From Phlyctochytrium arcticum (Eukaryota > Chytridiomycota > Chytridiomycetes > Chytridiales > Chytridiaceae), in NCBI GenBank assembly GCA_025602905.1, contig JAHLKI010000010.1:1-64000 (forward strand): a stretch of DNA of 64,000 nt, read 5' to 3'. The notes below the pieces were generated by a model. It saw nothing but the letters and a program-made list of their open reading frames with translations, was not told where the DNA came from and ran no database searches. Positions 1,765 to 32,213 of the stretch are shown in pieces (within the stretch, counting starts at the first letter, position 1; each line of letters opens with the position of its first letter). The translations under genes and the position numbers were made by a program.

Positions 1765-1815
1765 TGTGACAGTGCATGGTATATTCCATTATGGAATATA
1801 CCATGCACTGTCACA
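1765..1815. repeat. 51-bp perfect palindrome at the left tip
   Basis: A 25-bp stem (starting TGTGACAGTGCATGG) is followed by a single central T at 1790 and then by its exact reverse complement. The palindrome itself starts with TG and ends with CA. The copy at the right tip is the same with a central A, as expected for inverted ends. Such a sequence could form a hairpin telomere, a resolution site or an integrase/Rep recognition site. Confidence 0.95.
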
Positions 1816-2259
1816 GGGGGTTATTTGGTCTATGTGTAACCCCTCTATACAGGTTATTATCCCACCGTATAACCCCTCTAATTGCCCAATATTACCTCCT
1901 ACATGTCTAACCCCCGAACGGGGCTTACACCGGATTACACAGGATTAAAATAATCCTCTCCATAATCCGACCATCGAGTCAACCCTCCTAAACCGAATCA
2001 TCTCGCTCCATTATTCATCGAGTGCCGCCCCTGGCTCCGCCACCAAGGGAATTCCATTTTAAAAAGTTTATTCATGTATTCACATACTACTATATTAGTA
2101 TACTACTATCCTACTATCCCACTATCCTACAGTGTTCTCTTCAGGACCAAGATCATCAAGAGTATCAAGATGTGCAGGATCATCAGTTTTACCCCCTTCT
2201 TCAAAACTCACAAATTTTTCTAGATTTTATGGACTTGGCCAAAATTGCCCAAATTTCAC

Positions 2260-3230
2260 CAAAGTTTGGATATAGTACCAAACTTCCCACATTTCCTTCT
2301 TATGCGCTCTCTATCATTCATTCTCGGTTTTTCTGGATACTTTACCTCTGCAGTGTGTGTAGAAGCAAAATATCAAATTATCTGTCGAATGCCAAATTTC
2401 ATCGACTTCGTCATTGTGCAAAACTGACATTAGGATACGACAATGCCGCTTTTGCACAATGACGAAGTCGATGTTGCGTTGATGGAAATGGATGAGAAAT
2501 GAAAAGACGCTCCACAGCACCTCTCCATTCATGTACCATTTCAAAAGCCATTTTTTTTCATGTAGAGTGCTTTCTTGGAACTCAATGGAAATCTGCCAAA
2601 TATAACTGTGTCCAAAAACATTCACAACTTTTTCAGCAGGGGGCAATTTTGATACTCCCAACAATCGTGATGATCTTGCCCTTTACGAAAGGGCACAAAG
2701 CCCTTGAAAGCAGGGGGTATTTTCATTGATCTCCACATTATCAAGACTCTCAAGATCATCAATTTTACCCCCTCCCTCAAATGTCCCACATTTTCCAGAA
2801 ATGTACCAAACTTTCCACATTTCCACCTTATACAATCTCCATCATTCTCTTCCGGCTTTTCCGGAAATTTCACATCTACAGTGTATGTAGAAACAAAATA
2901 TCATGTAATCTGTTGAATGCAGAATTTTATCGAGTTCAGTATTCTGCAAATCTGACATTAGGATACGACAATGCCACGTTTGCATAGTACTGAAGTCGAT
3001 GTTGCATTGATGGGAATGGATGAGAAGTAAAAAGACGCTCCGTAGCACCTCTTCATTAGTGAAGAATTCTGAATGTCAGTTTTTTCATGTAGACTGTGTT
3101 CGTTAGAAAACATGGTAAAACAGGGAGATCTCCTGAATATAATTTTGGCCAAAACATTCACAGATTTCAAGAAGGGGGCAATATGAATACTCCTGACAAT
3201 CTTGGTGATCTTGCCCTTGAAAGCAGGGGG
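2260..3230. repeat. Two diverged ~528-bp tandem units
   Basis: The units align over most of their length: GTACCAAACTT near 2275 and 2805, the motif CTGACATTAGGATACGACAA at 2424 and 2952, and AAAAGACGCTCC at about 2502 and 3030. Divergence between the units is far greater than between the two arms, so this duplication is older than the arm duplication. Confidence 0.75.
2400..2473. repeat. Perfect 24-bp stem-loop with conserved 26-nt loop
   Basis: Positions 2400-2423 (CATCGACTTCGTCATTG...) are the exact reverse complement of 2450-2473. The loop (2424-2449) holds CTGACATTAGGATACGACAA. In the second tandem unit the loop is conserved but the stem has several mismatches. It is a candidate origin, packaging or recombination site. 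The function is inferred from structure only. Confidence 0.85.
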
Positions 3231-3292
3231 GTATTATCATTGATCTCCAGATGGGGGTATTATCGTTAATCTCCAGATGGGGGTATTATCAT
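3227..3292. repeat. Tandem 26-bp repeats (GGGGGTATTATC...)
   Basis: Two full copies at 3227-3252 and 3253-3278 are followed by a partial third. Related words occur at 2706-2740. The mirror copies are in the right arm near 22968-23035. Confidence 0.85.
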
Positions 3293-3794
3293 CTCTTTGT
3301 CTTTGCCCAATCGATATGAATTGCATATTGATCTGTGAGTAGAAAGACCTATCGATCTGTCGGCACCTTTAGAATGTGCTGAATATATTGTCAGCAAATT
3401 CTAGCCTTTCAAAAATGCAACAAATGCGACACATTTCTACAAAACCCACCAAATAACCACTTAAACTGTACAAAATGCGGCATTTTTTAGGGGTTCCTCA
3501 TTTCTAGCAATACCTAGCCGTCTTACCACCCATTTTCAGTCCTTTTTCTCAGCCATTTTAAATTTTAAATTCTTTTTTTAATTTTTCTTTCTATGTGGAA
3601 AATGTCCCTAAAATAGAGGCTATACCGGCTAGGTTTTTGCTCTACATAAATTTCTCTTCAATTGAAGAACTTATTAAAATATGTTACTACATCCATCGAG
3701 TGCAAAAAACCTAGCCACCCTTTTGACTAGGACTAGCCCTATTCTCTGCTAGATTTTCACAAAAGTAATGTCTTTCTACATACTTATTCTTTTT

Positions 3795-6304
3795 TTACAC
3801 ATTATTGTTCAATTGTCCTGTGTATCCTGCATAAGAGGTACTTGACATATTCTCTTTCTTTTGCCCCCAATGATCTCGAAGTTGTTTCTTATCCACATGT
3901 TCATATTCTTCATCATCATCTGCTGCTAATTCCCAATCATTTACTAATCTTGCTCCTACCCATCCTCGTACATTCTTTCCAGCGCGATATACCTGTCGAC
4001 GGGGATTTGATGGTGGGAACATTTGATCCATCATTTCATATAAATGTCGAACTAAAGCAGGAGTTTTTGTGATCCCTTGTGACTGGCAAAAGTTGGCAAA
4101 TGCATTATCTGCATTTGCTGTCGTAAGAACAACTTTATCATCGGTGGCAGTTGACACAGAAGCATTTACAAATCGTAGAGGTATGTTCTGTGATTCTTCA
4201 TATCTCTTAACTGTATCCTTGATGATTTGTGGTTGAACCGCTCGACCAACTCCCTCCTGTTTGTAACTTGTAGTGTATGTTTTAATCAATAATGCTAAGA
4301 AAGTGTCGGCACATTGTAGCAACTTTGCCTCGAATCCATCAATGATTTTTTTTTCATTTGGAAGTTTAGGATAATCAGTAAAGGAACACTCAAAAGGAAT
4401 AATAACAACTTTTCTCCAGAAACCTGCAAGTCATTTACAGCAATAAACACTTTTGCCATCAAGTCAATGACAACTTGATCCTTGAACAAGCCTCGACCAC
4501 TTGTTTGATCCCCACCAGCAACCATCTTGAGGAATTCTGTAAATAATACCTTATCTTCCAATTCAGTCAAGAATGCCCCCCGCTTGTGAATAAGTGATAC
4601 TAAACTTGGTGATGCAGCCTGTGCATTAACATTAGGTTTTGTAACTTGAGCAGATGAAATTGTTGCCCCATAATCGCCCAATGCCTTTTTTAGTAACTTG
4701 ATTAATAGGGATTTGCCATTTGCTCCAGGACCCAGGAAGAAGTAAAAAAATTGATCCTTAGTATATCCATCAAGTGAAGATGACATTGCTTTGAGCAAAA
4801 AGTGCTGGAGTGCTGCTCGATCAAGCATAATATCACTGAGAAAGCCTTCTACAATCTGTCGTTTTTCTAATGGATGTTCATCATAAGGTAGAAATTTTAA
4901 CCAAGTGGATAGTTTAGAATAATCTTCAGGAATTGCCTCTCTGAAAACATGTTCATCAAGATTGTAAACCCCGTTAGTACAATGCAGCAGATGTCGATTT
5001 TTGTTAAAAAGGACATCCTTTCGGCCATCTCTCACCAACTCAAACAGGGCTGATAGATGGTCATTTTTCGGGCGAGTCATTGAAAGTGAATATGCAAGTT
5101 TCCCAGCAGCACTTGCTCGCTTCTCCCATATCTCATCCTTATCAATCAAATTATAACAAATAGAATGAAGTTCATTTGCCATTTTGACATACTTATCCAT
5201 CAAGGGTCGTAAAATGACATTCCGAAATTCTTCTCTCCAGATACCTGTATCTTTTTCAAACACCAACCATTGATTTGGTTGATTGGTAGCAAGAACTGAA
5301 TTGTAAAGATCACCATGTATGGTTTCGGATACGGCTCGATTGGTAATATCCATAGTTTCAACAAGTTTTTTGACTGGCATTTGGCAATCATCCCACATCT
5401 TCAAATAATCAATGTCAATAACACGATTGAATCCATTTCCTGGACGACACACAAAGCGCAAGTTACCATGATGACGAACAAGGAAAGGATGGTTTGTATT
5501 CTTAACATGTTCACGTTGACAAATCTTACAATAGTAAGGTGCGGTAGCAGTGATAATGTACATATTGTGCATATTGGGCTGGGGGGAGATCCGAAAGCAA
5601 TCTTGCCAATACTCACTTTCTTTTAGCAATGAGATATCACTACTGACAAGTGCATCATTGGCTGAAGGATTGCTAGTAAAGTATTGTGCAGCGAAATGCT
5701 GCGGGGCTTTCTTCATGGTATCAAGGATATTACCAAGTATCCAGTTTGGAAAGGGTGCCATAGGCGTTTTAAACCCATCTGGATTATCCCATTTGTATCG
5801 TTGACTTCCTTTTATCGAAGGAGGGCACATTACATATCCACCTTTTTTTCGAACATCTACTGCAATCAAACGTCCATTTAGACTCATACACGATGTCCAA
5901 TTCTTCAACGTCTCTTCTCCTTCTTTTCCAGTTAATGAGAAATAGTAATGTTTGCCTCCACTTGGTGTAGAAACTGATAAAGTGGGTGGTAGTTGTTCAT
6001 TTTGTTCGATAAGTGTCTGAAAGTCAAGCATACCATGGTTTGTAGAGTATATTTTCTTATTGCCTCGAATAGCCGGTGGTTTGGCATCCACATCAACTAC
6101 AATGTACTCCTCCGAGACTAATAAGCCAATATTACAGTTTGTTTCCCAAACTTCTCTCTTTGGAAAATCTCGCTCGAATTGATAATTGTTGCCAGACCAT
6201 TTACCTAAAGGGCGCTTGGTAATGGCGGAGGCAGGAATGGGAACGAAAGCAGGATTGGCAATTCGCATCTTCTTTGCAGTTTTAAAAAGTTCTGTTTGTA
6301 CCAT
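3795..6304 (-). pseudogene. Primase-SF3 helicase (D5-like), left-arm copy, frame-disrupted
   Basis: This copy has the same translation as the right-arm copy at 19955-22464, where domains are described. The ATG at 6304-6302 lies downstream of a TATA-like TATATATA at about 6401-6408, and the open frame upstream has no ATG. The frame runs to 4295 and ends shortly after the SF3 motif C (IAVND). The rest of the protein is read in another frame down to 3795, with no shared start codon. The same disruption is in both copies, so it predates the copying of the arms or the arms have been homogenised since. Confidence 0.85.
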
Positions 6305-6441
6305 TTCAATGTTGTAGTAAAATGTTGTCCTACTTGTATGGGACACAATATCTTTAAATAGAAAGAAACGCACATCAGTATAACAGATTTTCGATGCGTA
6401 TATATAAGGAAACAAAGAGGACCGTAATACAATCTTATACA
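6305..6441. promoter_or_regulatory. Divergent promoter between primase and helix-turn-helix genes (left)
   Basis: The interval of about 137 bp contains TATATATA read on both strands and separates the leftward primase ATG (6304) from the rightward ATG at 6442. The identical interval is intact in the right arm (19818-19954). Confidence 0.55.
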
Positions 6442-6564
6442 ATGCCTGCCTCAATTTACGACTATGTAGCAATTGTCCATTTCTTAGGGGAACAAAGAAC
6501 TATTACAGCATCGAGCATTCGTGAACTAGCAAAGACTCTTGGCATTTCTCATGTTACTGCTTGA
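6442..6564 (+). pseudogene. Truncated helix-turn-helix gene at the inner end of the left arm
   Basis: The first 40 codons match the complete right-arm gene (complement of 19614-19817). The arm homology then stops at 6561, and a TGA follows by chance at 6562-6564. The break falls within the predicted helix-turn-helix, just before its last helix, so this copy should be inactive. It marks the exact junction between viral-type arm and chromosome-like core. Confidence 0.88.
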
Positions 6565-6816
6565 AGCTAATCAACTCACTCTCTCCCGCTGATAGAACAG
6601 ATGATCCCAATTTGGTAGCCGGAGCGAAACATTCGAAAGGACTTTGTATCGATCCCTAAAATTGTTTCCCTCACGGTGCTTGTTTCAAAGCGCTCTCCTC
6701 AACACTATACCGGTTCCTTTTGTTCCATGGCTCTTCTAAACCTTTTATCAATTCAGACTTGACAGAATCTTTCCGAAAACTTTTTTCAGAACATTGTTCT
6801 TTTGCATTCCCCAAAT

Positions 6817-8828
6817 CTATTGATCGGATTTAGGTGTCTTTTTGGGGGTGCTTCCAGGTGCTGGCACGGCGGCGGGAGCGGGCCAAGATCTTCTCTTGAG
6901 TACAAGTGGAATACGCTTTCCGCGAATCCCCACTGGCCTGGGGAATCGCAGATTACACTTGTTAGCGAGGAGTGCTTCGTCAAGCAGGTGCTCGGCATGG
7001 CGGACTGCTTCATGTGAGCGGATCATTGCGTGCTTTTTAAGAACGACGGTTACTCCACGGATAGCCCATAATGCCAGCAATATATCAACTCACCCGGCAA
7101 ATCAAGAATTTCTCGGCCATCTCCAGGCCGCTTTCCAAGTCGCCGGCTGGTAGAGAGACATTGGCCCACTCTTGAAAAGCGTACAATTCGCTTCCAATGT
7201 TAAACAGCACTCGGAAGTGCAAAATGCCGTTTGCCGCCTGATAATACGGGCAGCAGACCACTGACAGCATTTCGTCCAGGATGGGACGAATGTTGATAGT
7301 ACTGCCGGCTGTGCGGGCAACGACTGCTGACTTCAAACTTCGTATCTGGGAGATGGAACACTGCGAATGCGCTTCAGCTCTTGCAAAAATAGGAGCACTC
7401 GAGGTGTGGTACACCTACCTTTAAACCAGCGATAAAGTCGCTCTTTGTCAATGCTCGGCGGCTGCTTTCACCCGATCCAAATTCTCGTCCATCGATGATG
7501 TGCAGATAGTCGACATGCTTACCAGTAGAGGAGGACTGTCGCCGCTTCTTGTCGTCGCTGTCCGCCTTGGACTCGCCATCCCCATAGCGAAGTGAGACAT
7601 TATCCATCATCGCGAAAGGTAGGATCCGGTACGCGTCAGTGGTGCGCTCGGTCGGCTTCAACGGTTCCCAGCGAATCCGATCAAGCAAGAACAAATTGGA
7701 GAGGATCCAAAAAGTTTCCTTGTCGTCGGGGTCAATCGACTGGATTTGCTCTCTCAGCGCCCGGACTTGCTCGATGGCCATATCTTCCTCGTCGTCTTCT
7801 ACTTCGCCAATGATTATCTCAAATTTGGCAAGGTATGCTTGTAAAAGTTCCACGATTTTCGGGATTCCTCCCCAAACCATGGCCTTCTGAATGTCCTCAA
7901 GGCGAATCGGGTGAATTCCGCTTCGAGGGTCGCACGTAGAATTGATGCTTTTCGTCACTTCCAGGAGTGCGACGGCACTGGGTGAAATTCTCTTCGTAGC
8001 GTCCTTCAGCAGCTCGTTCACGTGATCGTGAAGTTTGCTGATAGTCTCCGAAGGTAAGAAAGTCTCGCCTCGCTCATTCTCTGGCAAGGGTCCTCCGCTG
8101 TCTGTTGAACGCAAGTCGATTGCCCCCCAGTAGATACTTGATAACGCTTTGTCCTCCGAACTGGACGAGCGAATTTCATGGATTTGGTGAATGACTCTGC
8201 TGAATTCGCCAAAATCGGAGTCAATCGCCTCGAGGACTATGGGGAGTGGAGTCTCCTCCTCTTCGGCAACTGTCAGAAAGAAACAGATCCGAGATAAGGA
8301 CGTGAGACGTTGGTTGGAGTGATCTATCTTACCCTCATCCTCGGGGCTCTCAGGGATCGCGTGACTGTCTCCTGCTTCTGGGTGTTCGCTTTCTACTATT
8401 AAAATATTAACATTCTGTGAATGGGACACACAAGAGAAGATCCTTATCTTACCTTCATCCTCGGGGCTCCTAGGGATTGCGTGATTGTCTCCTGCTTCTG
8501 GGTGTTCGCTTTCTACTACTAGAGTATTAGCATTTTGTGAATGAGGCACACAAGAGAAGAGGGTCGTTAGGCTAAAGAGGGATACTTCCTTACCGTTTTC
8601 GTTGTGAACAATCAATTTAGAGTTTCGATTCACTGCCTTTTCATCGCTTTTCCGACGCTTTGCTGCTTGCACGAAGGACGCTGCTGCTGCTGCAACAACT
8701 TCTGCACCCCCCAAATCTATGTCGACTTGTATGGCTTCAGTTGCTACCCTGGCGAGTTTTTTCTTGTTTGTGAGGGTAAAGTATCGAACCCAGCGTGAAT
8801 CTTGGTCCAGCTTTGAATGGAATGTCAT
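6817..8828 (-). CDS. Unrecognised spliced gene, possible PD-(D/E)XK-like cargo protein
   Basis: A long frame starts at ATG 8828 and continues through several GT-AG introns to about 7414, then through exons at about 7376-7085 and possibly 7045-6817. The middle is acidic and rich in Ser/Glu. Near the C-terminal third there is an HVDYLHIIDGREFGSGESS-like segment. Its Asp, Glu and Glu spacing recalls the degenerate PD-(D/E)XK domains of some fungal protein families, but this is weak. Two short exons (about 8463-8524 and 8339-8402) are near-duplicates of each other. The final splice is not resolved. It lies in the GC-richer core, so it looks like captured chromosomal sequence. Confidence 0.5.
8339..8530 (-). 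repeat. Tandem exon duplication inside the unrecognised gene
   Basis: Two exons of about 64 bp both encode the word ESEHPEAGD(N/S)HAIP. Each is preceded by a related intron end containing CTTCTCTTGTGTG. The duplicated unit is therefore exon plus flanking intron, offset by about 122 bp. Confidence 0.8.
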
Positions 8829-10096
8829 TAGTTATTCGGAAAAAGAAAAAGGTCGGTAAAATACATCCAGGGATTCCGAGAGGCTCTTCGCCCTCTCCAA
8901 AATCCGTTTACAATTCCTTTTATATGGGCTTTTTCTTCCTGTGCCCTGTTGCAGATATTCAACAACCTCTTTTAAAGCCGCTGACAGGGTTTTCCTGGCA
9001 CGATTTTCCTCAGAGGAGTGGTATCTAAAATATTTGGCAAAATTCGCTGGAACAAACGTTTCGCTTGTTATCCGCTCAACAATGTACTTGGCCTCAGCAG
9101 AGCTACAGAGAGCGAGCAGTTAGTCCAACTGGATGATACACAGAGGGGGACCTGTAAATCCATCCAATCTTCCAAATGCTGGTTCGACGGTGAAGCGTGC
9201 TGCTGCGTCATCCATTCATGATACGGTGCAACTTTCCTTGGAGCGATCTCGGACCAAGCTGCACCCATGAGGAATCCACCTACTAAGCTTCTGCATCTTT
9301 TCGCCCATAGGACGCCGTCGACCCCCGACGTCCAGATGCCAAGTGGTATCGCGCACGAGGACTTACAGAAGGATACCCGGGCCGGAATCGCGATTCACAA
9401 CTCTTCCGAGACAATTGGCAACCACTTTGGAACTGAGTGAACGGTGAAGCGTGCTGCTGCGTCATCCATTCATGATACGGTGCAACTTTCCTTGGAGCGA
9501 TCTCGGAGCAAGCTGCACCCATGAGGAATCCACCTACTAAGCTTCTGCATCTTTTCGTCTCAAGGACGCCGTTGCACCCCACAAGACCCAACTGCCAAGT
9601 GGTACCGCGCACAAGGACTTACAGAGGGGGCTCGCGTCTCCGCAGGGTTGGAACTTAGGTTGGTAAGATGGCCAGTTGCACTTCTACTCACCGGGAACCT
9701 GTCATAGCGAAGGGGAAGGATTGCAGTATAGGCTCGTTGGAAAAAGATTGGCAAAGGTGAAGGATTGTAGTATAGAGGCTCGTTAAAAAACGATTGGCGA
9801 AAGTAGGTGACAAGGACGCGGCGACGCGTCGATCTAGATCGGTAGATCCACCATTGGTCCATTGCCATGCCGACCACTCATCATTGGTGACTCATACTGA
9901 AGTTCAGAAGAATTGAAAATGAAACAGGCTATATTAGGACAGATTGCTCTTTCTCAAGGGTTAGTGTTAGTAATGGGGACGGAGATTGGGGAGGGGGACG
10001 ACTGAGAATCTTAGCTGAGAATCCTATTTTGTCATCTTTTTGTATTGTTTTTCTTTTTAAATCGAATAGAACTACCGCTGAGAATCGCCAAAACCA
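8829..10096. other. Gene-poor stretch with internal direct repeats
   Basis: No gene is supported here. A 117-bp near-perfect block occurs at 9187-9303 and again at 9441-9557, and weaker similarity continues about 70 bp beyond each copy. A smaller repeated word (GAAGGATTG.AGTATAG) occurs near 9715 and 9760. Confidence 0.6.
9187..9557. repeat. Direct repeat pair, 117-bp units 254 bp apart
   Basis: Units 9187-9303 and 9441-9557 start ACGGTGAAGCGTGCTGC and end CTGCATCTTTTCG with very few differences. Confidence 0.88.
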
Positions 10097-10447
10097 TTGC
10101 CAGAACAACTGCTAAAAATCGCTCGCGGAACCGTGTGCGCACCCATAGCGCGCACTCGAAAGAGCAATCTTACCACGTATTATGTGACATTGCGTGATTC
10201 GAAGAAGAGAAGACTGCCACCAGTCGACCGAAAAATAGGTCATCAAGCAACGATTTTGGACTTGGTTGAGGGAATGCCGGTTCAATTTACTCGCAACATG
10301 GCAGGAAACAAAATAGTCAATGTCACGTTGGGAATCATTGTCAAAATCGAAAGCCCATCCAATGTTATGACGGAACGTACTATGGATGGCACCGCTTTTC
10401 AAGAATGCTCCAAAATGCCGAGCAAAGTTTACGTTCAACTACTGTAG
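10097..10447 (+). pseudogene. Possible remnant of a PIF1-like helicase C-terminus
   Basis: An open frame of about 116 codons has no ATG at its start. Its segment GMPVQFTRNMAG...VNVTLGIIVKI resembles the C-terminal 'GxPVMLTRN...VNGTLGxV' signature of PIF1/RecD-like helicases. Nothing of the Walker motifs is present. I treat it as a fragment at most. Confidence 0.25.
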
Positions 10448-10623
10448 ACCAGAGAACATGCGTTGTCAACGCGTCTCAGTGCGCGTTGCGCGTTTCCAGA
10501 ATCGCACCAGATGCTAGGCAGAAGGCCGCAGAACTTTGGGACGCTCTGGCTTCTTACAAGTTTGGAGAATTGAACTTCAGAATATGGTAGGCAGCCCAAA
10601 CCACATGTATAGACGCAAATCAG

Positions 10624-13577: not shown

Positions 13578-16275
13578 ATGCTCTCGAGTGAGGAGGATCG
13601 GCTGGATCTGGCCGCGAAAGCGCCAAACAAGGTAGGATGCAGCATGACGGAAAATGAAACGTTTCACCCATCAATACTCTAGCAAGAGCGATGGCAAAAG
13701 GAGCCTCGTCCAAACAATTTTCATGAAGTTGGACTCAAAGGCCGGTAAGTTTTTCATATTTGTTGTACCTCTGTTTGCCACGAAACTCACAACCGCCGCA
13801 GGAAAACAGGAATAATGGCCCCGTCAGCTGTGGAACGGGATGCCGACGGTCTTATGAATGTCGGAGACTGGTTCAGAGATGAGGACGAGGAAATCACAGA
13901 GCTGACGCGCGGAATATCAGGTCAGCAGTGAGCAAGCAGACTAGCCATACTCCAGCTGACGTTTCCAATGATTGATAGAAGAATTCCCAACTACCCCAGT
14001 CAAAGATGCCCCACTTCAACCCAATGATACGGAACTCTCGCAAAAAACTTCACCATCGACACCCCTCCCCCCTTCCCCATCCCCTGCCATGAAACAGCGC
14101 GTGTCTGTACGAAGAGTCGCCAATAACGCCATTAGTCGGTTACCCGTCCATCTATGTTCGACTTACAGCTGGATAGCCCTTTACTGTCGACGCCAGTGAC
14201 ATTTAACGTCACTACCAATCCATTCATGTCAGACAAGGAGCTGCGTCCGTCCGTGTCACCGACCAAGAAGAGATCTAGGCGTGACGCACCAGCGGATCCC
14301 GAACTGCTTGCATCTGAGGCAATACTGACGGAGGATCTCGACCAGCTTGCATTTGGAAGAATACCGACAGAGGATCTCAACCAGCTTCCATTAGAAACAA
14401 TAGCGACAGAAGATATCCACCTTGCATCTGAGACAATGCAGACAGAGGATCTTGACCTGCTTGCATCTGAAACAATACAGACCAAGGCTTCATTTAATGT
14501 GTTCGGTCATGTTCTGGACGACGGCGAGAAAGAAATCACGGTAAATAAGAAATTTTCCGCGCAGTACGCCTCAGAAAGGTCGAATGGCCTGGAAACGGAG
14601 CGAAAATTACGCCCCGAATTGGATTCCGAGCCAGATCAGCAGCAAGAACTGGACGATTCTATACAAAATAGCGAACCGTCGAGCGAGGCGGATGAAACAC
14701 TGAGCATAAAACCCATCAAGAAGCCCATGAAGAAACCAGCCAAGAAGGCAAACGTTTCCAAACACGGTAAATATTTTTCAATTTTATATATGACCAGCCT
14801 TTAATTAATGATATCCAAAAGCCCGTGCTGAAAATCGCGCTTCAAAGGACAGCTTGGAAACTGAGCCAGAATTACGGCCCGAACCAGAATCCGAGCCAGA
14901 CCAGCAACAAGAACCGGAGGATCCTTCACAAGATAGCGAATCCCCAAGCGAGATGGCCGAAAAGCGACAAACAAAGTTCATGAAGAAGCAGCCCCCCAAG
15001 AAGCCAGCCAAGAAGGCAAGCGTTTCCAAGCGCGGTAACTACTTTTCATTTTTATATGACGGACCTCTAACTAACGATATCCAAAAGCCCGTTCTGAAAG
15101 TCGCGCTTCAAAAGAGTCAAACAGCCTGGAACCTGAGCCAGAATCGCGCCCCGAACCGGAATCGGAGCCAGGCCAGCAACAAGATTCGGACGACCCTTCA
15201 CAAGATAGCGAATCCCCTAACGAGGTGGTCGAGAAGCGGAACACAAAGCTTGTCAAGAAGTCACTCAAGAAGCCAGCCAAAAAGGCAAACGTTTCGAAAC
15301 GCGGTAAGTAGTTGTTTTCAAACTCGTATGACCAACCTTTTTTTAATGGGATCCAAAAGCCCGTTCTGAGGTACCACAGGACTCTTACAATCCAAGTTCA
15401 GACTCAGAAGATCATGATGGCCATAAATCAAACGGTCGTCGCAGCAAGCGGGTAAAGATGAAGCCACTCAAGTTCTGGGCAGGGGAACCGGTTGTAGTGG
15501 GACGGCGCGAGTCAGGTACAGACATGCAACGGAATGCTTCGCTCAGACGCTAATCTTCACCTACAAAAAGGGTTTTGTCCGGTCCCTGTCATCAAGGAGG
15601 TTATTCGCATCGACAGCGATGAAGAGGCGCTGGACAAGCCAGCCCCGGCGCGAGCAATGCGTAAGTCGCAAAAAGATATCAAACCAGTGGTACAGCCGCT
15701 TGTACCTGTCATGAACATCGTGACGGGCAAAGAGGAAACTCAACGTGGGTGTAGTACATATACCATTTCGAGCATAACCGATATTTACCACAGCTTCAGG
15801 CATCGTTGCCACGCCCGATATGTTGAACCCTCGCCTGATACAATCAGGAGACTACAAGTTCCAGAAAACCTTTAGTGAGGCTGACTTCATTGCCGCCGGC
15901 GTGATTGTACTACCCAAGGGCTCTGAAAAACCAAACAAGAACTCCAATAGCTCAACATTGGTATGTTAATATCCATCTTGTTTGGTATCTTCTAACCAGT
16001 TTGCAGGTCTTTTATGTCATATCTGGAGAGGTTCAAGTACAAGTACACAAGACAATATTTGTGGTCAAGACCGGATCGCAGTTTTTCGTCCCACGAGGTT
16101 GGAGTCGTTATATCTCTTGCACCATCCTTCAGAGCCATAACAGAACATCTCTTATCTCTCTACAGGAAACCAATATTTAATTCAAAATCAAACTAATCGG
16201 GAGGCAAAACTGTTTTTCTGCCATGGGCGAGAAATCGTGGTAGCCCCAAGTGAAGATCCGACATCCACAAAATGA
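13578..16275 (+). CDS. Kinetochore protein CENP-C/Mif2 homologue, complete 12-exon gene
   Basis: Exons that I can join in frame: 13578-13631, 13683-13744, 13802-13920, 13979-14100, 14169-14766, 14822-15034, 15088-15303, 15360-15515, 15571-15744, 15800-15960, 16007-16097 and 16166-16275. They total 2,076 nt, or 691 aa. Near the N-terminus is NNFHEVGLKGRKTGI, the Mif2 N-terminal 'GRKTGI' signature. Near residue 500 is SKRVKMKPLKFWAGE, which matches the CENP-C motif that binds CENP-A nucleosomes. The C-terminus is a cupin fold (VFYVISGEVQV, FFVPRGNQY, AKLFFCHGREIVV) that dimerises the protein. Three acidic/basic repeat blocks precede the motif. All splice sites are GT-AG and no lesion is seen. 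It should link centromeric chromatin to the kinetochore. Finding it within a mobile element is highly unusual. Confidence 0.88.
14580..15360 (+). repeat. Three tandem exon repeats in the CENP-C homologue
   Basis: The end of exon 5, exon 6 and exon 7 each encode an acidic block (EPE.RPE.ESEPDQQQ) followed by a basic block (KKPAKKA.VSKRG). Each is followed by a similar phase-1 intron ending in GATATCCAAAAG or GGATCCAAAAG. Exons and introns were duplicated together. Confidence 0.85.
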
Positions 16276-17625
16276 AGAGGATCCCGCTGTCAACACTGTA
16301 CATAATCGATAGAATCGTCTTCAGAGCGGAAACATATTTTCTCAGTGCTTTTTTTCAAAGCTTGCAAATTCTAGTACTTGTATCTCCGCATTCATCTACT
16401 CTTGATTTGGGTGAACCAATACGCAAAACTTTCCTTACTAAATGCCATAACGAGTGAATGGGTATCGACCTAGTGCTGATCACGGACAACCTACAATTCG
16501 GCAACAGCCCCTGCCAAATGTACATCTTGAGCAGCGGCGCTCGTAGAATGAAATCCAAATGCAGACACAAACCAAAACTGGAGCAAAGGCCTTGCACGAC
16601 TCCCTCCACCGTACCCCGCTCAGTGTTTCTTACCCAACGTTGTCGGGCAAAGCACCTCGCGGCAAATGGTGGTGTCCAGGTTGCCGAGATCGGTAATTAC
16701 CCGCGGTAGCAGACATTGTAAAAAAATATGTTTTCCATTGACAAAGCCGACTCGACTTTCCCACGCCACTCTCTCGTCGTCTCTCGCCCTCTACCTCAAC
16801 CTCTCGCGCTCTCTCGCCCCTTGCAACCATGGGCAAGATTCAAACTCACCAAACAGGAAAAGCGGACTCTCGACGACAATGGCGACGAGACCTTGACTTG
16901 CTGCCCCGTTGCGCGACAACATTGTTTGCAAAAAAAACAACTTTTGCCCAGGACTCGCTGCATCGGCAGGCGCCGCCCGAACCGCAACATCAACGCGGCC
17001 GACGCGTGCGTGACATCGCCAACGCACCCGCCTATATCCCTGACCAACTGAACCAGTCTGATTGCCGGGGCGCGCGTCTTCCAATCATGATTGCAAACCT
17101 CTGCGCACCCTAGGGTTTCATCTCTGATGTCCTTGTGGTTCTCGAGTCAAAATGCACATTGACGAACCCCCCAAACTCATTGCCCCAAGCTTTCACTGTC
17201 AACAAGTTGAAAATTCGGTTTGGCGAAACAATCGCTCAGCGCTTTGAACCGTCATGATATTTCCTCAAGCAGTATCTCAGAATCGGTTCTCTTCTTGCTA
17301 CTTTCCAGAATGCCTGTCCTTGCCAATTGGGTCACACTCCACAATTTTTTTGGGCCAAAAGCGTAACTCCAAAAGTCCCTATAAAACAAACTAGTATTAG
17401 AACCCTTGAAGCGATAAGACTACTTGCGACCTATATAGCAATACTGCATTTTACCTTTTCTAAATAGTTTCCTGGCAATTGCAGATTTGCTGCTGGAAAA
17501 TGTCTTTTGTGTGCGGAGTTTGCGAAATGCCAAAAATGACAAAGCCTTGCCGCTCTGCCTGTACAACACCATGCAAAAGCGGCGGAGGGCCTCCGTATAC
17601 CTGTATTCTTTTCTAGACTCTCCCA
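16276..17625. other. Chromosome-like stretch without a supported gene
   Basis: Short frames around 16728-17113 overlap in several phases and none has recognisable domains. A CTCTCGC-rich pyrimidine tract lies at 16760-16830 and an ATG in good context at 16829. I cannot support a product. Confidence 0.4.
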
Positions 17626-17643
17626 ATGTCGAGCAGTCCGGGT

Positions 17644-17676
<33 letters not shown>

Positions 17677-18102
17677 AAGGTGGTTTTCGTCGGGGATGAG
17701 GGTGCCGGCAAAACGTCTCTTATAGCTGCCTACTTGGGATTGCCCTTTACGGATCAACATTACCCCACCCTGTGCGAAACCTACGAGTCGGCAGATAAAG
17801 CCTTGGAATTATGTGACACGGCTGGAGCCCCAGAACTGGATCGGCTACGACCTCTCAGTTATGACGGAGCAGATCTCTTTGTTATTGTGTTTTCGATGAA
17901 TAGTCTGTTTCTTTGGTTTCAGGCCTCTCAAGCACGAAAGAAGGCATTGAGGAAGGGATGGATAAAGGAGGATGAGTTGGAAATCCCAGATTTTGGTAGC
18001 GAGGGGGATTATGTCGAGACAGTGAAGAGTTACTTGGATGGTGTCATGGCGGCAGGGGTTAGTGGGAGGGAGGTGGATCCGGATTCTTTATTATCCCTCT
18101 AA
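17626..18102 (+). pseudogene. Rho/Ras-like small GTPase fragment
   Basis: The ATG is followed by a polyalanine run encoded by (GCA)n, then by the P-loop GDEGAGKTS, the switch I YPT and the G3 motif DTAG. The usual G4 (T/NKxD) and G5 (SAK) motifs and a CaaX tail are absent. After about residue 100 the sequence no longer resembles a GTPase. The stop at 18100-18102 sits at the transition from GC-rich core to AT-rich arm. The gene is probably cut by that junction, although a spliced or divergent form is possible. Confidence 0.55.
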
Positions 18103-18543
18103 TTATTTTTGGTTGAGGAAATCGCCAAAGACCCAAGAATAATTGAAGAATTGGTTCGAAAACTTCAAGAAGCACGTGGATTTTCCATTGATGCAGGGGT
18201 TGCCGTGAAAGGTATCAACATTGAGGCACAAACTGTTGGATTTCGTCTGTTGGATAAGAACAATCAAGGGGTCTATCTCACTATCATTGAACCAAATTGC
18301 AAAAAAGGATACGGAAGAGGCTTTATACGTTACGTTGAGAACCAAAACCTCCTCTCCAATAAAATAGAGTTCATTTTCATTGTTGGAACAGATAAGAATT
18401 TAGGATTCTATGAAAAACTGGGGTACTATGTATTGACTTTCAAACAACGTGACTCTGGTATGGATGCTCTACTTGTTGAAAGTCCGATGCAAATTGCATA
18501 TATAAAAATGAGTGTTTTACCCCATCGAGTACACGAACACTAA
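18103..18543 (+). pseudogene. GNAT-type N-acetyltransferase, 5'-truncated
   Basis: The frame opens immediately after the GTPase stop, in the same phase, and has no ATG in its first two thirds. The segments GYGRGFIRYVEN and FIVGTDKNLGFYEKLGYYVL fit the acetyl-CoA-binding GNAT core (GxGxG/A-like loop and the N..FY.K.GF strand). Composition is AT-rich like the arms. The missing start indicates that the arm was cut just upstream, at about 18100. The next gene follows after a 3-bp gap. Confidence 0.6.
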
Positions 18544-18546
18544 AAA

Positions 18547-18921
18547 ATGGACGTTATACAGATAATGCAGCAATACGACGAGACTGGAAAGTACTCACTT
18601 TATAGCAAAGTTAAGGCACTTTGTGCAAAATTAACATGTTCTAGAGTTCAATCATATGAGAATAACTCTAACCGAAGCATTTATGAAAAGTATGGAGGGA
18701 ATGATTTCGACAGGTATGAACAATACCTCATTGAGAACAATCGGATATCGACAAAAAACGTTTGTGGGAATTGTTATGCCATTCCAAAGCAATGCACATG
18801 TGGCAAATACGATAAAAACAAGCGAATAAAGCGGAAAATCGTCAAAGATATCAACGTTTACAAGGTTGATAAAAGCGAACGCTTGCGCCAAATTGAAAGT
18901 ATAGTTGGTGAATACTTGTAA
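18547..18921 (+). CDS. Small cysteine-containing arm protein, unknown
   Basis: It encodes 124 aa from ATG 18547. A CGNC...CTC cluster near residues 77-90 may bind zinc and is followed by a strongly basic segment (KNKRIKRKIVK). No family was recognised. It is intronless and AT-rich, in tandem with the GNAT fragment, and belongs to the viral-type part of the right arm. It is not duplicated in the left arm, which ends earlier. Confidence 0.6.
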   Translation: MDVIQIMQQYDETGKYSLYSKVKALCAKLTCSRVQSYENNSNRSIYEKYGGNDFDRYEQYLIENNRISTKNVCGNCYAIPKQCTCGKYDKNKRIKRKIVKDINVYKVDKSERLRQIESIVGEYL

Positions 18922-18939
18922 ATGATGGACCATCCATAT

Positions 18940-19375
18940 TACATTTGTTATCGACGGGGTAAAGTACTCATTAATTAGAAATGAGTAGAAAAACCTGTCG
19001 ACTACAAGGTCATTGAAAACCCTTGTATAATGTTCACTGAATTTCACCTTTTGCCCAATTATGCCCAATTATGTATGAAATTGATACATAATTTGTGAAT
19101 GAAAACCGTTTATCGCTGTTTCCGGTATAAAATGCTGAGATGTTAGCCATTCAGTTTCAGGATCTGTTCCCTTCAAGTTGTATTTTGTTATCGACGGGGT
19201 AAAGTACTCATTAGTTAGAAGTGAGTAAAAAAACCTGTCGAATACTGTGACACTCAAAACCTTTGTATATAATTTACTGAATTTCACCCTTTGCCCGATT
19301 ATGCCCAATTATGTATGGAATTGATACATAATTTGCAAATGTAGCCGTTTATTGCTGTTTCCGGTATGAAATGCT
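18940..19375. repeat. Two ~240-bp direct repeats, each with two hairpins
   Basis: Units begin with TTGTTATCGACGGGGTAAAG at about 18946 and 19186, offset 240 bp. Each contains a nested inverted repeat (TACTCATT...AATGAGTA inside TCGAC...GTCGA) and a second hairpin (AATTATGTAT...ATACATAATT). They sit between convergent genes, so they may be terminators. The exact conservation of the stems also suits a recombination or replication site. Confidence 0.75.
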
Positions 19376-19379
19376 GAGG

Positions 19380-19580
19380 TTAGTGGGTCTTCTGTTTATA
19401 CAATTCAAGACCGCAATACGCACACAATTTTGTCCAACTTTGACGTTCTTTAGGTACTTTCCCAGTACATCCAGTTCCTTTATTATCACAAGGAATGAAC
19501 AAATTCCAGCAATCATCACAATATGTCCTGGCATTACGAATCATCTTTTCACACTTTGTACTTTTACACAATTTGGGCAT
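19380..19580 (-). CDS. Small zinc-ribbon-like protein
   Basis: It encodes 66 aa from ATG 19580. Cysteine pairs CKSTKC, CDDC, C...GC and CAYC suggest a compact double zinc-binding fold. No family was recognised. It lies downstream of, and in the same direction as, the helix-turn-helix gene, 33 bp apart, suggesting co-transcription. Confidence 0.6.
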   Translation of the reverse strand: MPKLCKSTKCEKMIRNARTYCDDCWNLFIPCDNKGTGCTGKVPKERQSWTKLCAYCGLELYKQKTH

Positions 19581-19613
19581 CTTTGTATATTGTTTTACTA
19601 TAGAGTCAATCCT

Positions 19614-19817
19614 TTATATAGCACGGTTTTGTTTTGGCTTCTTGAAAATCTCTGCATGAATGAGTGTCTTCCTTTCGGGATATTGCAGCATCTTGTGAGC
19701 AGTAACATGAGAAATGCCAAGAGTCTTTGCTAGTTCACGAATGCTCGATGCTGTAATAGTTCTTTGTTCCCCTAAGAAATGGACAATTGCTACATAGTCG
19801 TAAATTGAGGCAGGCAT
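19614..19817 (-). CDS. Small helix-turn-helix DNA-binding protein
   Basis: It encodes 67 aa from ATG 19817. An in-frame ATG at 19865 precedes the TATATATAAGG box and is therefore unlikely. SSIRELAKTLGISHVTAHKML is a typical helix-turn-helix, and the tail is basic (KKPKQNR). It is transcribed divergently from the primase gene and is probably a regulator of that pair. Only this right-arm copy is complete; the left-arm copy is cut at codon 40. Confidence 0.7.
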   Translation of the reverse strand: MPASIYDYVAIVHFLGEQRTITASSIRELAKTLGISHVTAHKMLQYPERKTLIHAEIFKKPKQNRAI

Positions 19818-19954
19818 TGTATAAGATTGTATTACGGTCCTCTTTGTTTCCTTATATATACGCATCGAAAATCTGTTATACTGATGTGCGTTTCTTTCTA
19901 TTTAAAGATATTGTGTCCCATACAAGTAGGACAACATTTTACTACAACATTGAA
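19818..19954. promoter_or_regulatory. Divergent promoter between helix-turn-helix and primase genes (right)
   Basis: TATATATA at about 19851-19859 serves as a TATA-like box for both directions. The spacing to the ATG codons is 34 bp leftward and about 96 bp rightward. Confidence 0.55.
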
Positions 19955-22464
19955 ATGGTACAAACAGAACTTTTTAAAACTGCAAAGAAGATGCGAATTG
20001 CCAATCCTGCTTTCGTTCCCATTCCTGCCTCCGCCATTACCAAGCGCCCTTTAGGTAAATGGTCTGGCAACAATTATCAATTCGAGCGAGATTTTCCAAA
20101 GAGAGAAGTTTGGGAAACAAACTGTAATATTGGCTTATTAGTCTCGGAGGAGTACATTGTAGTTGATGTGGATGCCAAACCACCGGCTATTCGAGGCAAT
20201 AAGAAAATATACTCTACAAACCATGGTATGCTTGACTTTCAGACACTTATCGAACAAAATGAACAACTACCACCCACTTTATCAGTTTCTACACCAAGTG
20301 GAGGCAAACATTACTATTTCTCATTAACTGGAAAAGAAGGAGAAGAGACGTTGAAGAATTGGACATCGTGTATGAGTCTAAATGGACGTTTGATTGCAGT
20401 AGATGTTCGAAAAAAAGGTGGATATGTAATGTGCCCTCCTTCGATAAAAGGAAGTCAACGATACAAATGGGATAATCCAGATGGGTTTAAAACGCCTATG
20501 GCACCCTTTCCAAACTGGATACTTGGTAATATCCTTGATACCATGAAGAAAGCCCCGCAGCATTTCGCTGCACAATACTTTACTAGCAATCCTTCAGCCA
20601 ATGATGCACTTGTCAGTAGTGATATCTCATTGCTAAAAGAAAGTGAGTATTGGCAAGATTGCTTTCGGATCTCCCCCCAGCCCAATATGCACAATATGTA
20701 CATTATCACTGCTACCGCACCTTACTATTGTAAGATTTGTCAACGTGAACATGTTAAGAATACAAACCATCCTTTCCTTGTTCGTCATCATGGTAACTTG
20801 CGCTTTGTGTGTCGTCCAGGAAATGGATTCAATCGTGTTATTGACATTGATTATTTGAAGATGTGGGATGATTGCCAAATGCCAGTCAAAAAACTTGTTG
20901 AAACTATGGATATTACCAATCGAGCCGTATCCGAAACCATACATGGTGATCTTTACAATTCAGTTCTTGCTACCAATCAACCAAATCAATGGTTGGTGTT
21001 TGAAAAAGATACAGGTATCTGGAGAGAAGAATTTCGGAATGTCATTTTACGACCCTTGATGGATAAGTATGTCAAAATGGCAAATGAACTTCATTCTATT
21101 TGTTATAATTTGATTGATAAGGATGAGATATGGGAGAAGCGAGCAAGTGCTGCTGGGAAACTTGCATATTCACTTTCAATGACTCGCCCGAAAAATGACC
21201 ATCTATCAGCCCTGTTTGAGTTGGTGAGAGATGGCCGAAAGGATGTCCTTTTTAACAAAAATCGACATCTGCTGCATTGTACTAACGGGGTTTACAATCT
21301 TGATGAACATGTTTTCAGAGAGGCAATTCCTGAAGATTATTCTAAACTATCCACTTGGTTAAAATTTCTACCTTATGATGAACATCCATTAGAAAAACGA
21401 CAGATTGTAGAAGGCTTTCTCAGTGATATTATGCTTGATCGAGCAGCACTCCAGCACTTTTTGCTCAAAGCAATGTCATCTTCACTTGATGGATATACTA
21501 AGGATCAATTTTTTTACTTCTTCCTGGGTCCTGGAGCAAATGGCAAATCCCTATTAATCAAGTTACTAAAAAAGGCATTGGGCGATTATGGGGCAACAAT
21601 TTCATCTGCTCAAGTTACAAAACCTAATGTTAATGCACAGGCTGCATCACCAAGTTTAGTATCACTTATTCACAAGCGGGGGGCATTCTTGACTGAATTG
21701 GAAGATAAGGTATTATTTACAGAATTCCTCAAGATGGTTGCTGGTGGGGATCAAACAAGTGGTCGAGGCTTGTTCAAGGATCAAGTTGTCATTGACTTGA
21801 TGGCAAAAGTGTTTATTGCTGTAAATGACTTGCAGGTTTCTGGAGAAAAGTTGTTATTATTCCTTTTGAGTGTTCCTTTACTGATTATCCTAAACTTCCA
21901 AATGAAAAAAAAATCATTGATGGATTCGAGGCAAAGTTGCTACAATGTGCCGACACTTTCTTAGCATTATTGATTAAAACATACACTACAAGTTACAAAC
22001 AGGAGGGAGTTGGTCGAGCGGTTCAACCACAAATCATCAAGGATACAGTTAAGAGATATGAAGAATCACAGAACATACCTCTACGATTTGTAAATGCTTC
22101 TGTGTCAACTGCCACCGATGATAAAGTTGTTCTTACGACAGCAAATGCAGATAATGCATTTGCCAACTTTTGCCAGTCACAAGGGATCACAAAAACTCCT
22201 GCTTTAGTTCGACATTTATATGAAATGATGGATCAAATGTTCCCACCATCAAATCCCCGTCGACAGGTATATCGCGCTGGAAAGAATGTACGAGGATGGG
22301 TAGGAGCAAGATTAGTAAATGATTGGGAATTAGCAGCAGATGATGATGAAGAATATGAACATGTGGATAAGAAACAACTTCGAGATCATTGGGGGCAAAA
22401 GAAAGAGAATATGTCAAGTACCTCTTATGCAGGATACACAGGACAATTGAACAATAATGTGTAA
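19955..22464 (+). pseudogene. Primase-SF3 helicase (D5-like), right-arm copy, frame-disrupted
   Basis: From ATG 19955 the first frame gives 669 aa. Residues about 59-200 match an archaeo-eukaryotic Prim-Pol domain (IVVDVD, TPSGGKHYYF, then a DVR...GGYV...PPS segment). CKIC and a later Cys near residues 259-286 may bind zinc. A D5_N-like region precedes the SF3 helicase: Walker A GPGANGKS (about 525-532), LTELED, KMVAGGD...R and motif C IAVND (about 621). Straight after motif C the frame changes near 21833. The segment expected to lead into the arginine finger is missing, and the conserved WRK...IPFE stretch and C-terminal tail are read in another frame to 22464. A short deletion is the simplest reading, and a programmed shift is less likely. 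The function would be replication initiation and unwinding. Confidence 0.82.
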
Positions 22465-24472
22465 AAAAAGAATAAGTATGTAGAAAGACATTACTTTTGT
22501 GAAAATCTAGCAGAGAATAGGGCTAGTCCTAGTCAAAAGGGTGGCTAGGTTTTTTGCACTCGATGGATGTAGTAACATATTTTAATAAGTTCTTCAATTG
22601 AAGAGAAATTTATGTAGAGCAAAAACCTAGCCGGTATAGCCTCTATTTTAGGGACATTTTCCACATAGAAAGAAAAATTAAAAAAAGAATTTAAAATTTA
22701 AAATGGCTGAGAAAAAGGACTGAAAATGGGTGGTAAGACGGCTAGGTATTGCTAGAAATGAGGAACCCCTAAAAAATGCCGCATTTTGTACAGTTTAAGT
22801 GGTTATTTGGTGGGTTTTGTAGAAATGTGTCGCATTTGTTGCATTTTTGAAAGGCTAGAATTTGCTGACAATATATTCAGCACATTCTAAAGGTGCCGAC
22901 AGATCGATAGGTCTTTCTACTCACAGATCAATATGCAATTCATATCGATTGGGCAAAGACAAAGAGATGATAATACCCCCATCTGGAGATTAACGATAAT
23001 ACCCCCATCTGGAGATCAATGATAATACCCCCCTGCTTTCAAGGGCAAGATCACCAAGATTGTCAGGAGTATTCATATTGCCCCCTTCTTGAAATCTGTG
23101 AATGTTTTGGCCAAAATTATATTCAGGAGATCTCCCTGTTTTACCATGTTTTCTAACGAACACAGTCTACATGAAAAAACTGACATTCAGAATTCTTCAC
23201 TAATGAAGAGGTGCTACGGAGCGTCTTTTTACTTCTCATCCATTCCCATCAATGCAACATCGACTTCAGTACTATGCAAACGTGGCATTGTCGTATCCTA
23301 ATGTCAGATTTGCAGAATACTGAACTCGATAAAATTCTGCATTCAACAGATTACATGATATTTTGTTTCTACATACACTGTAGATGTGAAATTTCCGGAA
23401 AAGCCGGAAGAGAATGATGGAGACTGTATAAGGTGGAAATGTGGAAAGTTTGGTACAATATCTGAAGTTTGGTACATTTCTGGAAAATGTGGGACATTTG
23501 AGGGAGGGGGTAAAATTGATGATCTTGAGAGTCTTGATAATGTGGAGATCAATGAAAATACCCCCTGCTTTCAAGGGCTTTGTGCCCTTTCGTAAAGGGC
23601 AAGATCATCACGATTGTTGGGAGTATCAAAATTGCCCCCTGCTGAAAAAGTTGTGAATGTTTTTGGACACAGTTATATTTGGCAGATTTCCATTGAGTTC
23701 CAAGAAAGCACTCTACATGAAAAAAAATGGCTTTTGAAATGGTACATGAATGGAGAGGTGCTGTGGAGCGTCTTTTCATTTCTCATCCATTTCCATCAAC
23801 GCAACATCGACTTCGTCATTGTGCAAAAGCGGCATTGTCGTATCCTAATGTCAGTTTTGCACAATGACGAAGTCGATGAAATTTGGCATTCGACAGATAA
23901 TTTGATATTTTGCTTCTACACACACTGCAGAGGTAAAGTATCCAGAAAAACCGAGAATGAATGATAGAGAGCGCATAAGAAGGAAATGTGGGAAGTTTGG
24001 TACTATATCCAAACTTTGGTGAAATTTGGGCAATTTTGGCCAAGTCCATAAAATCTAGAAAAATTTGTGAGTTTTGAAGAAGGGGGTAAAACTGATGATC
24101 CTGCACATCTTGATACTCTTGATGATCTTGGTCCTGAAGAGAACACTGTAGGATAGTGGGATAGTAGGATAGTAGTATACTAATATAGTAGTATGTGAAT
24201 ACATGAATAAACTTTTTAAAATGGAATTCCCTTGGTGGCGGAGCCAGGGGCGGCACTCGATGAATAATGGAGCGAGATGATTCGGTTTAGGAGGGTTGAC
24301 TCGATGGTCGGATTATGGAGAGGATTATTTTAATCCTGTGTAATCCGGTGTAATCCGGTGTAAGCCCCGTTCGGGGGTTAGACATGTAGGAGGTAATATT
24401 GGGCAATTAGAGGGGTTATACGGTGGGATAATAACCTGTATAGAGGGGTTACACATAGACCAAATAACCCCC
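22465..24472. other. Right-arm non-coding repeat and stem-loop region
   Basis: This mirrors 1816-3794. It has one additional 11-bp tandem copy (GGTGTAATCC) near 24340 and one additional block of about 19 bp containing GATATTGTACC near 23450. No gene is apparent. Confidence 0.65.
23805..23878. repeat. Perfect 24-bp stem-loop, right-arm copy
   Basis: It is the exact mirror of the structure at 2400-2473, with the same stem length and the same 26-nt loop. Confidence 0.85.
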
Positions 24473-24523
24473 TGTGACAGTGCATGGTATATTCCATAAT
24501 GGAATATACCATGCACTGTCACA
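24473..24523. repeat. 51-bp perfect palindrome at the right tip
   Basis: It has 25-bp arms around a single central A at 24498, and is the inverse of the left tip. Confidence 0.95.
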
Positions 24524-24528
24524 CAGAC
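24524..24528. repeat. Right target-site duplication of the nested element (CAGAC)
   Basis: Matches 1760-1764 exactly. The cargo gene frame resumes at 24529 (CTT TTA CCG). Confidence 0.88.
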
Positions 24529-28898: not shown

Positions 28899-28930
28899 GT
28901 TATAAGTTTTTTAGTTCTTCTTTTTAAAGA
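28899..28930. promoter_or_regulatory. Short divergent promoter between capsid and ATPase genes
   Basis: Only 32 bp separate the two ATG codons. The sequence is AT-rich with TTTTTAAAGA near the ATPase start. Confidence 0.4.
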
Positions 28931-29650: not shown

Positions 29651-29704
29651 GTCTGTGACTCCGTACAACTTTCTTCAGCTTCACTAGTAACATCATCGCA
29701 GGCT

Positions 29705-30743: not shown

Positions 30744-31227
30744 TGACTGAACTTATGAATAGTAAGTCTAAAAAAAGTTCGTGCGCACGAACTATGTGTT
30801 TACGGGTAATTTACACCGCTTTCTTCCTTTTTGAAAAGGAAAAGACTTTTGCCGTACAATTCGCCTATGCCGACACGGAGTGTTAATGTCGGCAACGACA
30901 TGCCTGCACTCTGCAACGGCATATAAGAATAACCCACTCTCACATCTCTCTCCTCACTCATCAATCTGTAGGAACCTGTAGGAACCATGGGAAAACCTGA
31001 AGCAGCTAAGCGATTTGTTATGAAGATAGGATGCGTCCCGCACACTGTGACAGTTAAGAAAGGGACAAACTCTTATGAGAAGACCTTGCCTTTCCATTGT
31101 CACCCACCACCCTTACAACGAGAAGATTCAACTGTCACTGCCTTCAGTTTGTACCAGCAGGCATCGAACACTTTCTCTGGTGCACCATCATTCCATGTAT
31201 TGGCAACAAGGCAAACGTCTGGTTGAA
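30744..31227. other. Intergenic region and unresolved 5' end of the next gene
   Basis: An ATG at 30987 opens a frame that ends at 31226, while the next gene is open in another phase from 31075. The translation between 30987 and 31227 looks protein-like in more than one phase, so the true start of the following gene may lie here with a frameshift. Confidence 0.4.
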
Positions 31228-32139: not shown

Positions 32140-32213
32140 GTCAAGCTGACAACCGCACGCGGGCATATCTTTCAATTAAAAATCAACTGTCTTTTCTAAA
32201 AAAAACCAAAAAT

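Follow-up and report, generated by a model that had tools for sequence, protein, structure and literature searches.

How could what appears to be a mosaic of mostly host DNA come to be enclosed by two inverted copies of one primase-bearing element end, and, as seems most likely, enter a genome as a single block? The question is raised by a unit at positions 1765–24523 of the window, the 64,000-nucleotide stretch that was analysed, which belongs to contig 10 (C10) of the 31.5-Mb assembly of the chytrid Phlyctochytrium arcticum. The features on which the argument turns are as follows.

1760–1764, no strand: target-site duplication CAGAC, left copy, identical to 24524–24528
1765–1815, no strand: left palindromic tip, 51 bp, TGTGACAGTGC...GCACTGTCACA, from self-pairing and DNA folding
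1765–6561, plus strand: left arm, one element end, which stops at 6561 by arm-versus-arm alignment
4295–6472, minus strand: Prim-Pol/SF3 primase-helicase ORF, 725 aa, frame disrupted relative to the C8 copy (PF09250, E=1e-19)
6562–17906, no strand: host-like core, from GC and genome comparison
7374–8828, minus strand: cargo ORF, 484 aa, the longest in the core, with relatives at 36–40% in Spizellomyces punctatus and Gaertneriomyces
17626–18102, plus strand: ORF for a Ras-like GTPase (PF00071, E=2e-12), at the core's right edge and spanning the 17906 joint
17907–18477, plus strand: block 98–99% identical to C54 (whole), C25 (to 18458) and C39 (to 18158), including part of a GNAT-like ORF
18479–24523, minus strand: element end, right copy, which extends further than the left arm; homologous to the C8 unit from about 18479 on
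18547–18921, plus strand: ORF of 124 aa, Cys motifs seen by eye, also conserved in the C8 unit (dN/dS 0.14)
19380–19580, minus strand: 66-aa Cys-rich ORF, zinc-ribbon-like (by eye), conserved in the C8 unit
19787–21964, plus strand: primase-helicase ORF, right copy, with the same 725-aa frame and the same disruption by sequence comparison
24473–24523, no strand: palindromic tip on the right, matching the left tip exactly as its reverse complement
24524–24528, no strand: target-site duplication CAGAC, right copy, identical to 1760–1764

The anatomy described in an earlier, sequence-only reading of this DNA (51-bp tips, 4.8-kb inverted arms, a 5-bp duplication and a GC-richer core) was recovered in full by remeasurement. 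Each tip consists of 25 + 25 paired bases with one centre base between them and folds as DNA at −27.3 kcal/mol, with z scores of −11.7 and −13.1 and no shuffle as good. The inverted arms, 1765–6561 and 19698–24523 (~4.8 kb), are separated by 1 substitution and 2 indels (10 and 19 bp), and the proposal that the unit holds two inverted copies of one element end is borne out. Only the left arm ends at 6561; on the right, element-derived sequence shared with the C8 relative reaches inward to ~18479, and neither inner end (6561 or 18479) carries a palindrome. The core has a GC content of 0.47–0.53, ~10 points above that of the arms (about 0.36–0.40), while the immediate right flank lies at 0.42–0.46 and much of 38–64 kb at about 0.5. 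As in a composite transposon, the duplication CAGAC is present only at the outer ends of the two inverted copies, so that the check for separate arm insertions, each with a duplication of its own, came out for a single insertion. When the C10 flanks are rejoined without the unit, 1 of the three forward frames is open across the joint, for 106 codons. This open frame, the matching outer duplication and the existence of other like-tip units with outer 5-bp duplications make insertion as one unit, as first supposed, the most likely event.

The arms were said to encode a Prim-Pol/SF3 helicase; the left copy does give a PF09250 match, and both frames are disrupted relative to the C8 copy. The two C10 copies lose the frame at one common place, as judged against the C8 copy, which is open for 908 residues. 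A public gene model (P0002, 824 aa) skips residues at this disruption, the intron being that model's reading, and along 87% of its length the C10 ORF matches a Phlyctochytrium arcticum protein at 100% identity. Among solved structures, the primase finds weak matches to poxvirus D5/E5 and ASFV C962R (E about 2e-4 to 3e-3), proteins of viruses with hairpin ends; the resemblance is a suggestive hint at hairpin-ended viruses and falls short of proof. When the C10 unit is compared with the C8 unit, the first 620 primase codons show a dN/dS of 0.17 and the 124-aa ORF one of 0.14, low values that point to purifying selection on both for part of their history. Other ORFs adjoining primases in the genome match SET, D12 adenine methyltransferase, and HNH with AP2.

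The core was taken to be chromosomal DNA; it does include a chytrid gene, but it is not one host segment, as its C15 and C54/C25/C39 pieces show. The segment 13077–17910 matches C15:16313–20732 in pieces at about 82–93%, with 16634–17479 unmatched there, and 6562 to about 13077 is without a close copy over most of its length. At the 17906 joint, two core pieces overlap by 4 bases. As far as these alignments can tell, the core is a mosaic of mostly host DNA. The cargo ORF is assigned as a chytrid gene because of its relatives in Spizellomyces punctatus and Gaertneriomyces, and no second copy of it was found in P. arcticum, which counts against capture by copying, since copying would leave a second copy. 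No integrase match lies in the C10 unit among the 150 of 222 retroviral-type (rve) candidates (PF00665) that were scored, nor does any of the 39 places in the genome that match the packaging ATPase (PF04665). With no such match and with disrupted primase frames, the C10 unit is best described as a defective, dependent derivative with two copies of one end, which was probably moved in trans.

The tips belong to a family that is spread through the genome. A pattern built from the 11 outermost bases, position 6 being C or T (TGTGAYAGTGC, 15–45 bases, GCACTRTCACA), finds 57 palindromes, which start with TGT and finish with ACA, against 0 for the reversed pattern; the tip-based tests that follow cover 50 of the 57. 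Among those read with their flanks, 26 of 27 pair throughout save for up to three centre bases, and one at C18 has a changed base. Eight different stem sequences occur in this set and are still self-paired, which indicates that both halves of the palindrome changed together. As the sequence-only reading had proposed to check, palindromes do lie beside primase homologues: 12 of 38 primase-helicase places have a tip within 7.5 kb, where about 0.9 would be expected (50 of 57 tips; 7 of 45 primase matches dropped as second pieces of the same gene), three of the 12 being in the C10 and C8 units themselves. A host subtelomere repeat was considered, as arm-like matches cluster at contig ends, and was rejected: the tip points outward from the arm at the 11 tip loci with arm matches that were read, and three tandem copies of TTAGGG have no match. 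Where contig ends fall in arm-like repeats, we think that the assembly probably breaks inside these elements. In IMG/VR, a search for free viral copies gave 0 matches to the tip pattern, one weak match to the primase alignment, on a contig that is phage-like by eye, and no match to the ATPase queries.

The centres of the tips are found in both orientations in three families, as AAC/GTT (GTTGTTC family), CTT/AAG (ACCCCC family) and T/A (the family of the C10 unit), the inner side of each tip being assigned by a run of G that agrees with arm matches wherever these exist. Palindromic ends with both centre orientations, a trait of hairpin replicons, are thus present here as flips between copies, and we count them for hairpin or fold-back replication. 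Within a unit, both ends are alike in C10 and C58 (2 of 2 clear asymmetric cases), an agreement that counts against free flipping of the centre. Strand switching while a palindrome is replicated in the normal way can produce short centre flips as well.

Both ends were readable in six pairs of like tips (50 of 57 tips), and perfect 5-bp duplications flank four of them: CAGAC at C10, CTGAC at C32, GAGCC at C58 and TTGTG at C4:875379–900156. The unit on C32 has 660-bp terminal repeats at 100%, and that on C58 lies within a tandem repeat, where a duplication weighs less. In the fifth pair, C4:900741–925880, TGGTG faces TTGTG, with 4 of 5 bases alike. The sixth, C8, shows no matching duplication; its two sides are in different genes (by eye), and at its right end the palindrome is present and the arm absent. 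The C8 unit is of the same tip family as the C10 unit, and unrelated DNA is joined to it at about the same element base, 18479. A further locus on C5 has tips of two families and no duplication.

What the parent of these units probably carried can be read from the two tip-bounded units on C4, of 24.8 and 25.1 kb. Each has a primase-helicase match near one tip, then an rve integrase, then an A32-type packaging ATPase, and the primase match is at one end only. The primase is 68% identical over most of its length in the first unit; in the second the match is confined to the helicase part, at 23%. The integrase matches (PF00665, C4:891107 and C4:908135) each fall within a 453-aa frame, and the ATPase (PF04665) is inside both units. 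The ATPase piece of the second unit is 60% identical to the 'FtsK' of Powellomyces chytrid fungus MELD virus 2 and is also similar to proteins of other chytrids. The same order recurs elsewhere, with the integrase 4–8 kb and the ATPase 8–11 kb on from the primase: rve then ATPase follow on the same side at 12 of 38 primase-helicase places, compared with about 0.1 expected under independent placement of 150 rve matches. Of these 12 sets, only the two on C4 have a tip within 7.5 kb; a third has one at 13 kb, and the rest have none near (50 of 57 tips). Tips are thus established for only a minority of this gene family; the other sets either have other ends, are cut short or have tips outside the pattern. 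On C28, conversely, two tip-primase segments occur with no integrase or ATPase match within 20 kb (62 of 150 rve matches, six of the 62 chosen for their nearness to known loci).

Judged by these matches, the long C4 units have most of the genes that an integrating polinton-like virus would be expected to carry. The features of that family found here are an A32-type ATPase, an integrase, and terminal inverted repeats with 5–6-bp target duplications. As such, the suggestion of a virus-derived element is strengthened by relatives with a primase-helicase, an rve integrase and a packaging ATPase, whereas the statement that no named class fits is overturned by the integrating polinton-like or MELD virus genes in those same relatives. 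Judged on primase, integrase and ATPase, the parent is most likely an integrating polinton-like (MELD-type) virus with palindromic ends, from a chytrid branch. Other assignments were tried and rejected. A tyrosine recombinase of Crypton or Starship type (PF00589) has 5 matches in the genome and 0 in the six tip-bounded units. A Polinton in the same window has an integrase with 17 matches, and neither the C10 unit nor either C4 unit contains one of these. Elements with PolB occur apart in this genome, one of them decayed, at 28.1–36.5 kb of the window.

We regard it as probable, if not strongly so, that the C10 unit is a defective derivative of a polinton-like (MELD-type) virus in which host DNA was capped by two tips and inserted as a block. 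When its ends replicate, the parent virus would pass through a fold-back hairpin; a genome that lacks a protein-primed PolB could complete its ends in this way, and the tip centre would be inverted. On a linear form or a broken chromosome, the primase-bearing end may then have been copied or joined to both sides of a mostly host mosaic, so that two tips would cap it. An integrase acting on the tips could insert the capped piece as one unit with a 5-bp duplication; as none was found in the C10 unit, we propose that an intact relative supplied it. Near-identical arms that share one frame disruption are counted for this explanation, and the C8 composite with no duplication and the unlike tips of C5 are points against it, as are the primase-integrase-ATPase sets with no tip near, the helicase-only match in the second C4 unit and the two C28 segments. 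What we infer from this pattern is that the ends are hairpins closed covalently, that a free linear form exists and that capture came before integration.

The order of capture and integration could also be the reverse. An ordinary element may have inserted with CAGAC and lost its middle; the break would then have been patched with host pieces, and break-induced replication between inverted repeats would have overwritten one end with the other, in which case the core was never mobile. In favour of this are the mosaic core with its 4-base overlap at 17906, the primase match at a single end of the C4 units and a cargo ORF with no second copy found. We hold this course of events to be possible, if rather doubtful, in view of C8: that in a second unit of the same tip family, too, unrelated DNA is joined at ~18479 is easier to explain by a process that recurs on free ends than by a single accidental repair. 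Nor need a free viral intermediate have existed, if two partial end copies already flanked the genes elsewhere and an integrase moved the whole segment by its outermost tips. Two outward tips would be enough for the integrase, and cut-and-paste leaves the cargo in single copy, as found; yet arms near-identical over 4.8 kb with the same frame disruption must have been one sequence recently, and no donor remnant was found, which together make this composite-transposon route improbable.

Inverted arms might, finally, be the product of a chimeric long read or of misjoined repeats, and at least nine contig ends of the assembly do lie inside arm-like repeats. The C10 unit, however, has different flanks, a matching 5-bp duplication and an open frame across the rejoined flanks; its arms differ by a substitution and two indels, and units on C32, C58 and C4 likewise have inverted tips and outer duplications. 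An assembly artefact is accordingly the least credible of these accounts, and we give it very little weight.

Capture by tips on free ends, our preferred explanation, invites a broader proposal, offered tentatively and, taken whole, unlikely to hold in full: that this chytrid family comprises integrating small DNA viruses with covalently closed hairpin telomeres. The ~6-kb tip-plus-primase end would then be a transplantable telomere, such that any DNA capped by two of them becomes a linear, replicable and integrable passenger, and genes could be shuttled around, or between, fungal genomes. Terminal repeats are a known trait of the small integrating viruses of this group, and protein priming is the presumed way in which members with a polymerase complete their ends; hairpin telomeres have so far been associated with large viruses. 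Ends that are self-paired, vary in their stems and occur with two centre orientations, in units with no PolB match, suggest hairpin telomeres as another solution to end replication. If so, end replication would join the primase and the packaging ATPase as a link between small integrating and large viruses. Should two such ends be able to cap host DNA and insert it, early-diverging fungi would have a concrete route by which viruses move chromosomal genes. The same genome supplies material for a test, with 57 tips, two long tip-bounded units and two or more composites.

Among known systems, bacterial composite transposons have two inverted element copies around passenger genes and one outer target duplication. 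The C10 unit differs from them in that neither flanking copy appears mobile alone: each arm is tipped only on its outer side, its primase is disrupted, and no integrase match lies in the unit. Poxviruses, ASFV and the chlorovirus PBCV-1 have linear genomes with hairpin ends, and they are named in passages of PMC12085832, which discusses such ends in giant viruses. These genomes resemble the chytrid units in their palindromic or fold-back ends, both centre orientations and D5-type primase-helicase. They belong to large viruses that are not known to integrate by an rve enzyme, and closed ends are putative in the chytrid units.

Polintons and Mavericks share with the chytrid elements an rve integrase, a packaging ATPase and terminal repeats. 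They have PolB, in the strict sense of the class, whereas of 15 PolB matches (PF03175) in this genome 0 lie in the six tip-bounded units. The mavirus-like EMALEs of Cafeteria come closer in this respect, for PMC8547959 describes mid-GC types with an rve integrase and a long primase-helicase and no pPolB. Its shortened EMALE copies have terminal repeats that 'must have regenerated', a precedent, as far as that text goes, for one end copied onto the other. EMALE duplications, unlike those here, are mostly 3–5 bp and variable, and no host-DNA core appears in the passages of PMC8547959 on these elements. Closest are the polinton-like and MELD viruses (Powellomyces chytrid fungus MELD viruses 1–6; Spizellomyces punctatus PLV, PMC7805220), with an A32-type ATPase, a primase-helicase, an rve integrase, terminal inverted repeats, 5–7 bp duplications and integration in a chytrid genome. 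Neither palindrom nor hairpin occurs as a word in the main texts of PMC7805220, PMC10120064, PMC12220804, PMC9952930, PMC4642659 and PMC12721341, or in that of PMC8547959. The C10 unit departs from these viruses in carrying host DNA with no integrase or ATPase match, between palindromic tips. Relative to the polinton-like and MELD viruses in these texts, the novel features are the palindromic ends and the host-carrying composites.

Two groups of repeats lie in the core of the C10 unit, the host-like mosaic between its two arms, and parts of both groups also match the C15 copy, the sequence on another contig that corresponds in pieces to part of the core. Elsewhere in the window, a decayed Polinton-like element occupies 28167-36501, and a MULE-type transposase domain is encoded on the minus strand.

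Features of the window
14290-14487, inside the C10 core: repeat group, five units, spacing 36-39 bp
14567-15369, inside the C10 core: repeat group, three units, spacing ~270 bp
within 28167-36501: PolB (PF03175), in pieces, profile match
within 28167-36501: rve-integrase piece, by eye
within 28167-36501: A32-type ATPase, by eye
within 28167-36501: minor-capsid-like ORF, by eye
38771-39871, minus strand: MULE-type transposase domain (PF10551)

For the integrase piece of the Polinton-like element, C12:506364-506849 is a 99% match; its PolB has an equally scoring counterpart at C12:503104.

Across the whole assembly, TTAGGG x3 found no match and at least nine contigs end within arm-like repeats; the chromosome ends are therefore probably missing from the assembly. 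C28 has two near-identical tip-primase segments (C28:136967 and C28:170289) that share one orientation and are separated by 33 kb; the outer five bases at one are the reverse complement of those at the other. The unit at C5:1119671-1128805, which carries tips of two different families without a target duplication, is possibly a recombinant of two elements.

The C8 unit, a relative of the C10 unit with the same tip family, contains a copia-like retroelement, recognized by eye, and in its element arm the following ORF.

L009 (a sequence of the C8 unit) 2378-2851: HNH-AP2 homing-endonuclease-like ORF

In its core, two adjacent ORFs span 2978-4981 of L010, a second sequence of this unit; by eye, the first resembles a ubiquitin-like domain and the one after it a Crinkler-type ATPase.
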